Part shown: positions 1 to 7,163 of the stretch, in pieces
Position numbering within the stretch: position 1 is the stretch's first letter
Layout: each line of letters begins with the position of its first letter
Source of the DNA: Amyloporia xantha
Lineage: Eukaryota; Basidiomycota; Agaricomycetes; Polyporales; Adustoporiaceae
NCBI GenBank assembly: GCA_036971615.1
Contig: JAYKKR010000008.1
Coordinates: 1,364,001 to 1,428,000, forward strand
DNA: 64,000 nucleotides
Reading direction: 5' to 3'
Translations under genes and position numbers: made by a program
Notes under the pieces: generated by a model
Told to the model about the DNA's origin: nothing
Database searches by the model: none
Seen by the model: only the letters and a program-made list of their open reading frames with translations

Positions 1-921
1 GGGTGTGTAGGAGCTTTGCGCAGCAGCGACGCGGCGCGTGCTTTATCGTGCAGAGGCAGCGGGAGAGCCGTCGGCGGATTCGGCCTCGACGGATGGTGTT
101 GAGGCACCGTAGCTTGGGTGTGCAGAGACCAGCGGGGCGCATAGCACGCTGTTGCTGTCGCTCTGTGGTTAGTGTGAGTATCTGACGACACGGCAGATGT
201 ATGTATGTTGTATGTACCCAACGAGAGCGACGGACTGGGCACGCTTGTACTGAAGAGGGAGTGCCCACGTCTCGCATGAGACGGAGCGCAGCAGAGCGTG
301 GGGACGTCTCGCACACTCTGGTCGACGCACTGCAGCTGCGTTTGACGGAGAGCGAGGAGCTGGATGGCGACGCTGCACTGCGCCGGACGTCGTGATTCGA
401 CGACAGACAGCAGTGAGCGTGCTGCTGCAATCGCTTGCAGCTAACGCGGGGAGCAGCGTGGTACTATCGAAAGCAAGAACTCACCGTGAGTCAAGCGCCC
501 ACTGGCATGCGGAAGGGAGGGAGTGAATGCAGGACTGCACCGGACGTTGTGATTGAAGCGTGCACAGTTCTGAGGAAGAGACGTGAAGAACGCACGGGAA
601 GCGCGTTTGGAGCAGCGCTGAGCGCTGAGAGCTGAGGCAGGCTGGAGAGGAGAGGTCATGGGACGGCCATGGGACAGAATGGCAGCCATGGCCAGCGAGA
701 GGCGAGAGACGCGATCGAGTCGGCAAAGTCCGATGTGACAGGTTGAACGGCTGCTGTCTCAAGGTGCCGCCAATTGCAACTCGTCGACGAACGTGCGAGG
801 ATCCTACGCATATGGCACTGGCAGCCCGCCCCAGTATGTGTCTGCTCGTCTGACCTGCACCCTAAGGCCCAGTCAGCTACACCGTCGCACCCCGCGTGGT
901 GTGTGCCTCCTCCCGACCGAC
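1..921. other. intergenic region upstream of PPN1
   Basis: No convincing gene. The open frames are short, overlap on both strands and have no recognisable motif. The first 620 bases are rich in GA on the + strand and contain a degenerate repeated phrase: ccggacgtcgtgatt near 384 recurs as ccggacgttgtgatt near 541. The last 200 bases presumably hold the PPN1 promoter and 5' UTR. Confidence 0.5.
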
Positions 922-3666
922 ATGTTCGAGCTGCAACTGTTACTCCTGCTGTTCCTCTCCTGTGCCCCGGATGCGCTGGCCGCGCCGTCGCAAGCACCCC
1001 TCGGTGTCTCTGTCGCCCGTACGTTCGCCCCTAGCCGTCTTCTGACCCATGCCTGACGACGCCCGGGACCTCAGGCCCACCCCGCAAGATCCAGGGCCGG
1101 TTTCTCCACATCACGGACATGCATCCGGACCCGTACTTCAAGCCCGACACGTCGGAGAAGTCGGCCTGCCATAGGAAGAAACCGAAGAAGGCACAACCGC
1201 GCGCGGGGATGTATGGGCTGCCCTTCAGGTTCGGATTCTGTTAATGTACGGGCATGAGGCTATCACCGCTCGGTATATGACCTAGTGCTATTGGCTGAAC
1301 GCAGCCACCCAGTCGTTTCGTCATGGGCTTGGGGTCGCCGCTCAATGGCACCGGCTTCTATGGGAGCGGTGGTTCCCGGATGCGCGCACAGTTAATTACC
1401 GGCGAGGCTAAGACGTTGATGTAGTGAATGCGACTCGCCTCTCTCTTTAACGAATTTCACGCTCGATTACCTGGAGAAGGAGTGGAGCGCGGACATTGAC
1501 TTTGTCATCTGTAAGTGGTCGGTTTTACTAGTGATCGCTCGTAGAGACGGAAACATGTTCGTGCAGGGACGGGGGACAGCGCAAGGTGCTTTCGGTCTGC
1601 TAGACTGATCGACTGTACATGCTTATGGCTGCTTAGGCATGACAATGACCGAAAGAACCCTCGTACGACGAGTGAGATATACATGCTCAATCGGGCCATG
1701 GCCCGCAGGATGGAGGAAGTGTTTCTGAGCAAAGGGATCCCTGTGATCCCGAGTATCGGTGAGTAAGCACCCTGCAGTCCAGAACATTGCGTCTGATATA
1801 ATCCGTCGCGCGCTGCCTCAGGTAACAACGACGTTTGGCGTATGTGATATACATCTCTTTTGAACCGCATCATGGTGGGCTGATTACTGATCTCCCTGCG
1901 AATTACCGTGCCATCTGTATCAGCACACGTAAGTTCATCCACATCTATTGCTCGTGTGTGGGAGCTCATGCACAGCGGTCAGAACATTATGCTACCAGGT
2001 ATGGACGCGGCGATGTTCGTTATGCGGCGCGCTGACCCAACGAGGCACTCTAGGCCCCAACAGCGTGACGGCCGAGTTCTCATCGTGCGTTTTGCTATCG
2101 GCTTCTTTGCGAGATTCTCGACGGGCTGAGGCGTCGATTTTTTGGTGTAGCATATGGCGGTCTTTCGTCCCCTTCGAGTCGTACCAAGTCTTCCAGCGCG
2201 GCGGCTACTACTCGGTCGAGGTCATTCCGAATTCTGTCGCGGCCGTTAGCCTCAATACGATGTACTTTTATGATTCGAACAAAGGTAGGCCCATCTGCAG
2301 ATTCTAGGGCCTGTGCCCATCGGATGATAATGACGGCTCTTCTTTGGTTGCCATCGCGACCAGCTGTGGGAGGATGCGAGCCCAAGGATCCCGAGGACCC
2401 CGGGAACTTGCAACTCGATTGGCTCGAGGTTCAGCTGGACAGCTTCCGACGCCGGGGCATGCAGGTCGGCGTCTCGGAGTAGCTCTCCCACGCATGCCGA
2501 GTCTTGCTGACTTTAGTGTGCAATTCAAGGTATGGATAAGTGGACATGTCCCGCCTTCCTCGGACAACTTCTTCCCTGACTGCGTGAGTTTTCCCTGGAG
2601 AGAATTCTTACCCCCGTGTTGATGCCTGCTTCAGTATGTCCGATACACGGAACTGTCTCTGCGATATCAGGACACTATTTTGGGACACTTGTATGGGGTG
2701 AGCGGCTCGTTTCGGATGACAGGCCGAGACACTGATGCGTGCGCGGGACTATATTATATAGCATATGAATGCGGATCACGTAGGTCGTCTGACCAGCGCT
2801 CTGATAGTTTCTCACCGCTTTCGTGTAGTTCTTCTTCCTTGAGGCGGAGGATCTACAAGGGCAACCCAAGAGCAAGAAGACATTGTCATTAGATGACGCG
2901 GATGCGCCGCACGATGAATCGCATAAGGGGTTGTACAAGACATTGCTGAGAGACTTTGAAGACCTGCCCAAGACGTCTCAGAACATAAGCTATGATGACT
3001 ACGGAGTTGTGAATGTTTCGCCTTCCGTGGTTCCGAATCCATACCTGCCTTCATTCCGAATTTTTGCTTACAACGCCACCGGCTCCCCTTACATTCCGCC
3101 TAGCCTGACGGAGGTACGCAAAGCTGCACAGGCGGGGAATGCGAGCGGTGCTGCACATTGCCTCAATAATGTATCAAGTGATTCGAATCGCGATTCATGG
3201 AGATGCAAACTATCGAAACCGTGGTACTCAAATCCTGATTCACCCTCGCGCACGAACAGACTTTGGACACCGCTTGGGTATGCACAGGTATGTCATTTTA
3301 TCACGAGAGCTGTCGAGCAAAGCGTGATGCGGATGCTATGCACAGTACTATCTCCCGAAGCTGGAGTCTGCGGACAAGAAGCATCCACCAAAGGTCAAGC
3401 TCGAGTACTTGACGTTCCCCGTGTCGCTGCTGCATCCTCCCCAGGCGGAAGACGAGGCGAGGTTCTGGTACCCGATTCCGCTACGCCATCTTCCGAAATC
3501 ACTGCGAAACGCCACGGTCACAGCATCGAAGTTTGCCCCTTACGGATTGGCAGATCTGACCATCGCGTCGTGGACTGATTTGGCACAGCGTCTGGCGGTG
3601 GGTGCGGAGAAAAAGCTGCGGAAGCGGTTTAGGAAGTACATGTACATGGGTACGGACGAGGGGTGA
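922..3666 (+). CDS. PPN1: endopolyphosphatase (vacuolar, PPN1 family)
   Basis: Cleaves long polyphosphate chains internally; in yeast it is a vacuolar type II membrane protein of the calcineurin-like phosphoesterase family. The start at 922 gives a hydrophobic N-terminus (MFELQLLLLLFLSC) fitting a signal anchor. The next exon carries the first metal motif HITDMHPDPYF, followed by KSACHRKK. Spliced pieces then give ECDSPLSLTNFTLDYLEKEW, DFVIWTGDSARHDNDR (GD motif), IPVIPSIGNNDVWPHNIM (GNND motif) and ISGHVPP (GH motif). The last exon ends in KFAPYGLADLTIASW plus a basic tail. Introns are numerous. Inferred exons at 1567-1585, 1822-1839, 1924-1928 and 1983-1998 are only 19, 18, 5 and 16 nt long (see findings). 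No frameshift or missing metal ligand was seen. The family call is firm; some boundaries are not. Confidence 0.92.
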
Positions 3667-4163: not shown

Positions 4164-7163
4164 ATGGCCGCGGCAAATCTCCAGTTGATGGCCACAAACG
4201 TTCCCTTCGAATTCATACCCTCTAGTCACCCCCACTCGCGATCCAACTCGGTCTCCTCCACGTCCTCTGCCAACTCACCCGGCTCCCGTCCTCAGTCTTC
4301 CCAGGGTGCCATTTTGCGCGCGTCGGCTCTGATGCCGCCATCCTCCGAAGACCTCTACCGTGCTTCCTTCCATACCACCAACTCCTTTGCGGGCGATCAC
4401 ACTCGAACCACATCCGACGCATCCCACTCCTCTGCCTACTCTCTCGGCTCAGAACTCCTCACCCCTGCTGACTCCCCACCCAACCACAATCTCTCCAATC
4501 CCTCGCTCAAGGCCCATCTGCGACCTACCCACATCCGGGCCCGCGTCGCCGCCTCTCCCTATCCGCGCGATTGCGAGAGCGTACACTCCTCGTCTAGCGA
4601 GACTGAAGACATCTCCTTGTACCTCAGCGGTTCTGAGTACCATCCCATGTTCGGAGGACAGCAGATGTTGGGCCATAACAGCTCAGAATCGATGCACCCC
4701 GCGGGCGCGTTTGGGCGCATGGCCATTAACCAGGACCATGCCCTAGAGAAGCTGGCAGCCAACGTCCGCGCTGCCACGACCACGAGTGCATCGGACAGGG
4801 CAAAACAAATTTTTGTTCAGGCATGGTGCGTGTGTCAGCTGTTGATGCGGTGCAGGCACTGACAGTGATTCTAGGTTGACCGCGAACTACTCGCCTTACC
4901 CGGATGGGAATGTTCCTCGTCAGGGCCTCTACTTCTCGTATCGCCGAGTCTGCGACCAGTACGGTATCCCGCACATCAACACCGCCACGCTAGGTAAGGC
5001 CATCAGGCTCTGTTTCCCTACAATCAAGACCAGACGCCTCGGCGTTCGGGGGAACAGCAAATACCATTGTGCGTATGCATTCGATCACGGTTCCGTCGTC
5101 AGTCCATGATTGACGCCAATGTGACAGATTGCGGCATACGTCCCGCGACGTCGGCAGAAGCCGAGTTTCTGCAGGATTACATCCGTAAATCGAACAACAC
5201 CGCCGCGCAGCAGTCGGTCAATGCTGCCCGTATGGCGAGCGAGCAGGCGGAGGCCTCGAACAGAGGCGGCTCGGACGACGAAGATGACGAAGATTCGGAA
5301 GGTGGCGGCGCAAGCTCCGGGAATGTATCAAAGCGGAACTCGCTGAATTTGAGCAACGGTGTGAAGAACCCGACTCTTTTCGCCGATGAGAAGACTCCCA
5401 CAGCCAGCAGTCTACTTGCGCTAGCACAAGTGTCTCAGCGGCCTTCCGCTAGTTCGTTTCCTGTGCAAGCTCCAATTCGGCGACATGCGGGACAGGTCGA
5501 ACCAACTCTCACCGTGCCATCGCACTCTGCGCCTGCAGACGTCGGCGGCCCCATCACGCTCATGTCTCCGTCGGCACCAGTCTCGGTCAGGCAATTGCCG
5601 CAATTCCCATCTATTGAGGAAGCCGTCGGAGGTTCTTCAACGTCTCCCCATAGCATTGCGGCCCGTGAAGTGTGGCGGTGGTTCCAGGATCACCTCGACT
5701 CTTTGCTAGAGAGCATAAGGTCCTTCCGCTTTGACCAGTTCGAACTGCATTTGCGGACGTTCTGGTCGAATCTCAATGGGAGCCATCGCGAGGTCGTGCA
5801 CGCACCTGCCGTTGCCGGTCTTATGAACAAGGCAGACGCCGTTGTCTATGATGTGTGTTTTCAGTTCATCAATGCTGTAATGTTGCTTACTATTTTGGCG
5901 CAGGAAATACTCGAGATTCTCCGCTCCCAGATGCTCTCTTCCATCCCCCAAGCGTCTCTTGCGGGCCTGCGCCAACTTGCGGACAAGATGGAGAAAATCC
6001 TCCTTGTGGCCCTCGAAGGGTATGGCAACACTTTTGTTGAGCCGAAGGTCGAATTGGGCGCTCGGTTTGGACACCTTGTCTGTAAGTCGCTGAGAGCATT
6101 TTCGACCCTGAGCGGTTCTCATGGCCCGTTTTTATTGCAGTGCGCTTCCTTGATATATATCAGGTCACGCAAGCTCTTAGCACTGTCCTGACCAACCCGA
6201 AGCAGCTCACTGATATGCGTCGGTCCTGGCAAAAAATCGACTTTGAGTCTGTTCGTAACCAGTCGGCGTTGGTTTGCAACTGCCGGCACGAGGATCTCGT
6301 CCAGCTGCTAGAGGTCGAATTTGTTAATCTGCTGGACGGACTACCCAAAAGCCAGGATCCAGTTCGGGATGTTATGGCTTGGGCGGACAAGTGTTGTGAA
6401 AGGTTGATGGGTGCGCGCGGCAGTGATGATCGTACTACGATGAGTTCGAGGAGTGTCTTGATTCGGTGGGGTTATGTGACTAGCCAAGTTATGAGAGATC
6501 TGGTAACCATCTCTTCCGTTGAAGTATGCCAACAATATCTAACGGATGTTGTTATCCGTGCACAGACGATCCGGAGTGACCCCGCATTTGGTGCCTTCCA
6601 GATTCTGAAGCTGTTCTTAGAGTGCGTCTTCGCAGATCCCTCTGTGTTTCAAGTGCCACTAACTGAGCGGTTGTTATAGCGACTGGATCGCTTTGAACGT
6701 TCTTAGGAGCGTTGCTCTGTCGACGAACTCTGTGGCGGCCTCCGTTGAGCCTGTGATGCAGCAGCAGTTTTATACCCTCTCGCCAATGGCTGGACAGGAA
6801 AGTTTCGGCCACCAGCTGGACGTTCCTCATTCCGTCATGGCCCATACCCCGACGACGTCCAGCATGCTCGCCGCGCTACAGCATGATACCTTCGCCGGCG
6901 CACTCGATCCGACTGCGAGTGCCTTCGGCGCGGATGCATTTGGTTCTCTATCATACATGGATACGTCCAGTGCTCACGACGACTCGATGCCCGGGCACTC
7001 GTCGATGTCGTTCCCTGACTACGTTTCGGGTTCATCTGCTTTTGATGCAGCAGCCTTTGGCTCACATGAAATTAGCCTCAGCAGCGCGTCGGGAACGCCC
7101 CCTTCGACCGGTAGCGAACCGGATAACTCACCGGAACCTGTGAAGACAGAGAACTCACTTTAA
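4164..7163 (+). CDS. RFX-family winged-helix transcription factor
   Basis: Nuclear DNA-binding regulator; fungal RFX proteins bind X-box sequences and often repress DNA-damage-inducible or morphogenesis genes. A Ser/Pro-rich N-terminus of about 200 residues precedes the RFX DNA-binding domain. Splicing out 4826-4874 joins QIFVQAW to LTANYSPYPDG. Splicing out 5069-5127 joins RGNSKYH to YCGIRP, restoring the family signature TRRLGVRGNSKYHYCGIR. After an acidic linker (DDEDDEDSEGGG) comes the conserved RFX middle and dimerisation region (VWRWFQDHLDSLLESI, RSWQKIDFESVRNQSAL, ILKLFLDDWIALNVLRSVA). The C-terminus is Ser/Ala-rich. Further introns lie at about 5850-5904, 6080-6140 and 6633-6679. Length and order fit fungal RFX1; targets cannot be read from the sequence. 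Confidence 0.93.

Follow-up and report, generated by a model that had tools for sequence, protein, structure and literature searches.

Exons of one to a few nucleotides are already known from plants and fungi. In Arabidopsis, APC11 contains a single-nucleotide exon, for which the authors regard intron definition with sequential intron removal as the more plausible model (PMC4674806, in the text available), and in Fusarium a one-nucleotide exon with supporting RNA reads is described for CYP621A (PMC12940212, in the text available). Small plant microexons of 1-15 nt are described, in the accessible part of a survey, as conserved, located inside protein motifs and pervasively misannotated, and one rice transcript has adjacent microexons of 5 nt and 12 nt that were checked by RT-PCR (PMC8831610). 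Among basidiomycetes, the shortest exon in the P450 models of Phanerochaete chrysosporium is given as 6 bp (PMC1184071), and the models of Phlebia radiata include predicted exons down to 2 nt (PMC6540522). In Trichoderma, Xlr2 has a microexon switch, in which regulated inclusion alters the isoform (PMC11121469). In the available text of three further papers, the term “microexon” refers to an RNA-seq aligner option only (PMC3990503, PMC4014442, PMC8022950). A search by titles and abstract openings, with most subscription journals outside its scope, found no PPN1 microexon and no microexon conserved across the Agaricomycetes.

The case described here, a predicted 5-nt exon (CACAC) in a PPN1-type endopolyphosphatase gene of the polypore Amyloporia xantha, would add one more to these ultra-small exons. 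Like the APC11 exon, which is constitutive, it is most likely used constitutively; the APC11 exon differs in being 1 nt long, in a plant and tested with reporter constructs (PMC4674806, as far as available). The CYP621A exon is closer, as it is also a fungal ultra-small exon in a conserved motif that gene models usually miss, and was also deduced from a gap that was too long (139 nt versus 143 nt here) and flanked by phases that do not match. That exon, however, is 1 nt long, RNA-supported and part of an ascomycete P450, whereas the PPN1 exon is 5 nt long, belongs to an Agaricomycetes polyphosphatase and is predicted from sequence (PMC12940212, in the text available). The rice pair resembles PPN1 in that a 5-nt exon adjoins another tiny exon, but the plant microexons come from an RNA-seq based survey of plants (PMC8831610, accessible part). 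P. chrysosporium and P. radiata share with A. xantha the basidiomycete pattern of many short introns and very small exons; these works are family or genome surveys, and their available text does not treat PPN1 (PMC1184071, PMC6540522). Xlr2 is likewise a fungal microexon, but it is regulated, whereas the PPN1 exon carries no sign of regulation (PMC11121469, in the text available). An earlier, sequence-only reading of this DNA had placed 5 nt near the limit of what a spliceosome can handle. This does not hold, because 1-nt exons are published for Arabidopsis APC11 and Fusarium CYP621A (available text of PMC4674806 and PMC12940212).

The window analyzed is a stretch of 64,000 nucleotides, positions 1364001-1428000 of contig C59 in a genome of 46.8 Mb and 60 contigs; unless given with a contig, coordinates below are those of the window. 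The PPN1-type gene lies at 922-3666 on the + strand, as do all of its exons. We rebuilt it exon by exon from conserved motifs and GT-AG sites, which gave 16 exons and 565 codons plus stop: exons 1-5 at 922-1018, 1075-1228, 1425-1510, 1567-1585 and 1637-1758; exons 6-10 at 1822-1839, 1924-1928, 1983-1998, 2054-2084 and 2151-2284; and exons 11-16 at 2364-2464, 2530-2583, 2635-2697, 2762-2779, 2829-3287 and 3346-3666. The model is stop-free throughout and all 15 introns are GT-AG, with lengths of 49-196 nt. Several exons are very small (19, 18, 5, 16, 31, and 18 nt). The intron at 1229-1424 is unusually long at 196 nt (the remaining 14 are 49-84 nt), has a non-consensus donor (gttcgg) and contains no CTNAY motif. 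A hidden exon within it was considered and dropped, because 17 relatives examined align across YGLPFS-ECDSPL with no residues missing.

The gene product is likely a polyphosphate-cleaving enzyme, a PPN1-type endopolyphosphatase, judging by its relatives. Among the matches listed, the first-ranked homologue is P0001 from Laetiporus sulphureus (Polyporales), with 74% identity over 98% of the query; it is listed as an endopolyphosphatase, a name that comes from annotation and not from an assay. The best listed homologues are Agaricomycete proteins, many of them annotated as endopolyphosphatase. The protein contains the calcineurin-like phosphoesterase domain PF00149 (25.3 bits, cut-off 21.5), and the NCBIfam search assigned no family to it or to P0001. 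PPN1 belongs with the acid-sphingomyelinase-like group; the solved structures that match the protein by sequence are acid-sphingomyelinase-like phosphodiesterases and a sphingomyelin phosphodiesterase, including SMPDL3A (chain 5ebe_B, E 1.1e-28). The next gene downstream (4846-6191) encodes RFX DNA-binding and RFX BCD domains. Among the matches listed, two relatives, P0084 (Favolaschia) and P0114 (Mycena kentingensis), have a PPN1 model with an RFX name, which suggests a conserved neighborhood and fused gene models or names.

Homologues were compared as a set of 140 distinct proteins, the best 120 each of 2549, 2060, and 1777 matches. These proteins are mutually related and their annotation pipelines are possibly shared, so the counts below are not independent. 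Fourteen of the 140 come from short unannotated lgn/jgi contigs (longest contig 1.8-7 kb). We take these to be transcripts because their frame is uninterrupted through what are 16 exons here, and refer to them as transcript-like; the best listed match of this kind, P0004, is 70% identical to the PPN1 protein. The names of the other 126 listed homologues are from public annotation. All 14 listed transcript-like homologues read GNND.[WY]PHN, and thus Pro-His follows the metal-site motif in each. Among the 126 annotated homologues listed, WPHN is present in 74 and absent in 52, and the models that read WPHN carry no information on exon boundaries. At the aligned place the solved relative SMPDL3A has W-P (GNHDYWPQ). 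The sequence-only reading had asked whether Pro-His is invariant in Agaricomycete relatives, and the transcript-like sequences answer this in its favor, supporting its preference for a 5-nt microexon.

In the A. xantha gene, the Pro codon of this dipeptide would be interrupted. Exon 6 (1822-1839, 18 nt) encodes GNNDVW and the first base of a Pro codon, ends in phase 1 with GAC GTT TGG C at 1839, and is followed by the donor gtatgt from 1840. Exon 8 (1983-1998, 16 nt) opens with AAC ATT ATG at 1983, directly after ggtcag, and encodes NIMLP and the first base of a Gly codon; exon 9 (2054-2084, 31 nt) starts in phase 1 and encodes GPNSVTAEFSS. The phases of exons 6 and 8 are incompatible (1 versus 0) and the gap between them is 143 nt. 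Pro-His cannot be contiguous with either exon, as the bases following TGG are CGTATG and those preceding AAC are GCGGTCAG, neither of which encodes it. Within the gap, a cag acceptor (1921-1923), CACAC (1924-1928) and gtaagt (1929-1934) follow one another, and the arrangement cag-CACAC-gtaagt gives the missing five bases, so that GNNDVW-PH-NIMLPG is read in frame. CACAC thus has the sequence features of a spliceosomal coding microexon (at most 15 nt), as it is flanked by AG and GT, restores the frame and encodes conserved residues. As exon 7 it is predicted to supply the last two bases of the Pro codon and the whole His codon, in the loop just past the GNND metal-site motif. The upstream intron (1840-1923, 84 nt) runs from gtatgt to tatcag, with CTGAT branch-like motifs at 1880 and 1887. 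The downstream intron (1929-1982, 54 nt) runs from gtaagt to ggtcag and has CTCAT at 1965, with the A 14 nt from the 3′ splice site. Skipping CACAC alone leads to a frameshift and a stop at codon 214, and skipping the 16-nt exon 8 alone leads to a stop at codon 172. The sequence-only reading had given the end of exon 6, its donor, the restart at NIM and the CACAC segment with its two splice sites; every one of these coordinates proved right, and the in-frame W-P-H-N-I-M is borne out by the complete stop-free model.

We scored the splice sites with a matrix trained on PPN1's 13 other introns only. Of the gene's 166 GTs, the donor at 1929 scores highest by this matrix. Among 152 AGs, the acceptor at 1923 comes an unremarkable 64th, and the acceptor at 1982 has a low score (-1.9). 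Between the start of exon 6 and exon 9, allowing 1-3 introns with a minimum length of 40 nt, we enumerated 30 open in-frame splice routes, with retention of the 54-nt downstream intron among them; just one of the 30 produces WPHN. CACAC, which the earlier reading gave as the only source of Pro-His, is therefore unique where WPHN is required and not otherwise, given the 30 open paths. By splice score alone, the top route reaches 34.8 versus 30.5 for the WPHN route (three introns); CACAC is still an exon in the higher-scoring route, but the conserved V-W is lost (GNNDHTGQNIM). The frame can also be restored by routes that omit CACAC, for example through a donor at 1844 and an acceptor at 1975 (W-R-I-G-Q-N-I-M). 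This route is open and has a splice score of 19.1, but it loses the Pro-His found in 14/14 transcript-like homologues, and W-R-I-G is absent among the 29 W-R models of the listed annotated homologues; we find a solution of this type barely credible.

The pattern is rare by chance. When the 143-nt gap was shuffled 20,000 times with dinucleotide composition kept, AG-CNCAY-GT appeared in 193 of the 20,000 sequences and the strong form, YAG-CNCAY-GTRNGT, in 4. In the 46.8-Mb genome, the 14-base core CAGCACACGTAAGT has 4 matches, all within the four tandem copies of the PPN1 5′ half, and the reversed control pattern of CAGCACACGTAAGT has 0 matches.

These copies form a tandem array at C59:1336259-1366353 with a period of about 9.5 kb, in which the PPN1 5′ half is repeated upstream of the intact gene; the last, partial unit is window 752-2353. 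Over 900-2353, copies 2 and 3 match the window copy exactly, and copy 1 is about 99% identical, with 13 differing sites (9 exonic and 4 intronic); three of the four intronic differences are in the upstream intron of the microexon and none is in the microexon or the downstream intron. We rejected the copies as evidence of selection, as copies 2 and 3 are identical and the likeness of copies 1-3 to the PPN1 gene stops at 2353, so that little is shown about selection. The array could be a recent amplification or an assembly artefact. Directly past the truncation point, at C59:1337861-1337892 and at the same place in the next copies, about 33 bases match the last part of PPN1 exon 10 (window 2251-2283) at 91% identity, a remnant that looks like a possible rearrangement scar. 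No second PPN1 locus was found in the genome, with all 24 matches in the C59 array and the gene.

The 54-nt segment downstream of CACAC could instead be no intron, or be mostly retained. Exon 7 would then be 75 nt long (1924-1998) and encode WPH-VSSSTSIARVWELMHSGQ-NIMLPG. The segment is a multiple of 3 and has no in-frame stop, so retaining it would insert 18 residues, and three annotated relatives (P0036, P0118, P0130) have PH-V models that resemble such a read-through. However, all 14 transcript-like and 74 of the 126 annotated homologues listed have no insertion at this place, and the segment opens with the best-scoring donor of the gene and closes in cag, with CTCAT 14 nt upstream. We thus consider retention very unlikely.

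The failures among the annotated models are concentrated at this exon. Across 122 alignment columns that are invariant in the first 13 transcript-like sequences (the fourteenth, P0140, is outside the alignment), the 126 annotated models depart most often at Pro and His, which are kept in 64 and 63% of them; the next-lowest column is at 75%. We also counted models with a gap or insertion at most 2 residues from each exon junction among the 126 listed annotated homologues. Of the 126 models, 26 and 37 are broken at the junctions on either side of exon 7 and 17 at the junction of exons 8 and 9, while the 11 other internal junctions, from exons 2 and 3 onward, are broken in 1-9 of 126. The junctions of exon 14 (18 nt) and exon 4 (19 nt) fall within this low range. 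The junction of exons 1 and 2, in the variable N-terminus, is broken in 92/126 models and in 10/13 transcript-like sequences. In the transcript-like set (n = 13), the junction of exons 2 and 3 is broken once and none is broken from exons 3 and 4 on.

The residues that replace Pro-His in the 52 failing models are informative. At least one of four overlapping signatures (R-P-N, R-[KE], [KQE]-N and PH-V) occurs in 35 of them, or in 33 without the two WPQN models; 5 show only Arg and then another residue, and 12 show no signature. Arg continues the sequence in 29 of the 52. Thirteen of the annotated models read [WYS]-R-P-N, as results when exon 6 is joined directly to exon 9 (C-GN gives Arg). Of the 16 other Arg failures, 10 continue with K or E; C-GTRAG is read as Arg-Lys or Arg-Glu, so K or E is expected where a donor directly follows TGG C. 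N-I-x is retained in 19 failures, and 13 of these have K, Q, or E ahead of the N, against a background of 14% (binomial p about 1e-7, for sequences that are not independent); the remaining six have D (three models), L (two) or H (one) there. As an acceptor NAG read as a codon gives K, Q, or E, these residues are expected where an intron ends directly before the Asn codon. Two of the 13 K/Q/E models read WPQN (P0047 and P0101), which could be real substitutions, since SMPDL3A has WPQ. In the three PH-V models, the sequence resembles read-through of a donor directly after His. In combination, 35/52 failures show the kind of error to be expected where a gene model overlooks an exon flanked by two introns in these phases. 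Such protein-level errors would indicate that other lineages have both introns in the same phases.

The R-P-N models bear on another possibility, that exons 7 and 8 are skipped jointly (1839 to 2054), giving GNNDVWRPNSV without PHNIMLPG as the predominant product or a regulated isoform. The two exons sum to 21 nt (5 + 16), so joint skipping keeps the frame; the product has 559 codons counting the stop, and this form is found in the 13 of 126 listed annotated homologues noted above. However, it is found in none of the 14 transcript-like homologues, even though its open frame is within the length range searched, and it deletes residues that are invariant in that set. In addition, P0126 of Thelephora ganbajun is annotated as WRPN, but the transcript-like P0124, 71% identical, reads WPHN, as does the transcript-like P0140, which is 78% identical to P0124. 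Joint skipping in this form is highly improbable in our view. The best overall explanation is that CACAC is, with little doubt, a genuine coding exon of 5 nt in the PPN1-type endopolyphosphatase gene, most likely constitutive.

Clear error signatures occur in eight orders of Agaricomycetes among the matches listed: Polyporales (Postia), Gloeophyllales (Gloeophyllum), Atheliales (Athelia), Russulales (Artomyces), Corticiales (Punctularia), Hymenochaetales (Phellopilus), Agaricales (Schizophyllum), and Thelephorales (Thelephora). Signals in Boletales (Suillus clintonianus, WPQN) and Gomphales (Ramaria, W-R-A-S) are ambiguous, and a second member of the Russulales, Lactarius, has WPQN. The flanking introns are thus probably present across much of the Agaricomycetes, with few species shown to carry both and exon sizes in the relatives deduced from protein errors. 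Scans of viral contigs and of bacterial and archaeal genome contigs turned up no genomic DNA of a relative. If both introns are shared, the 5-nt exon would be shared as well, and it is probably old, given the clear signatures in eight orders. By the names shown, the matches listed (the best 120 of 2549, 2060, and 1777) sampled no outgroup beyond the Agaricomycetes, and the age is therefore not bounded below this class. A further idea is that the 5-nt and 16-nt exons have been kept since the Agaricomycetes ancestor as a 21-nt in-frame cassette, whose joint skipping would be regulated and would make an inactive polyphosphatase. We regard this as unlikely; joint skipping is known so far only as the 13 R-P-N models among the 126 annotated homologues listed.

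With CACAC taken as an exon, the shortness of the adjoining introns and the arguments published for the Arabidopsis single-nucleotide exon suggest how it may be spliced (PMC4674806, in the text available). Each of the flanking introns (84 and 54 nt) would be recognized across the intron (intron definition), in which case exon 7 need not be recognized as a unit. Since 5 nt hardly offers room for two spliceosomes at the same time, intron removal would be sequential. The 54-nt downstream intron would probably be removed first, a guess made because its donor scores best in the gene.

This exon is of interest because it is probably old, lies next to the metal-site motif and is frequently misannotated. 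About four in ten of the listed annotated homologues (52/126) are wrong or unusual beside this motif, which matters to those who use the models. Misannotations of this kind may serve as a read-out of hidden splice sites, an approach that could be applied proteome-wide to find further conserved microexons. If the PPN1 exon is as ancient and widely shared as these errors imply, mushroom-forming fungi would have retained it over much of their diversification, and it would be a natural test of how a fungal spliceosome used to short introns deals with an exon too small for two complexes.
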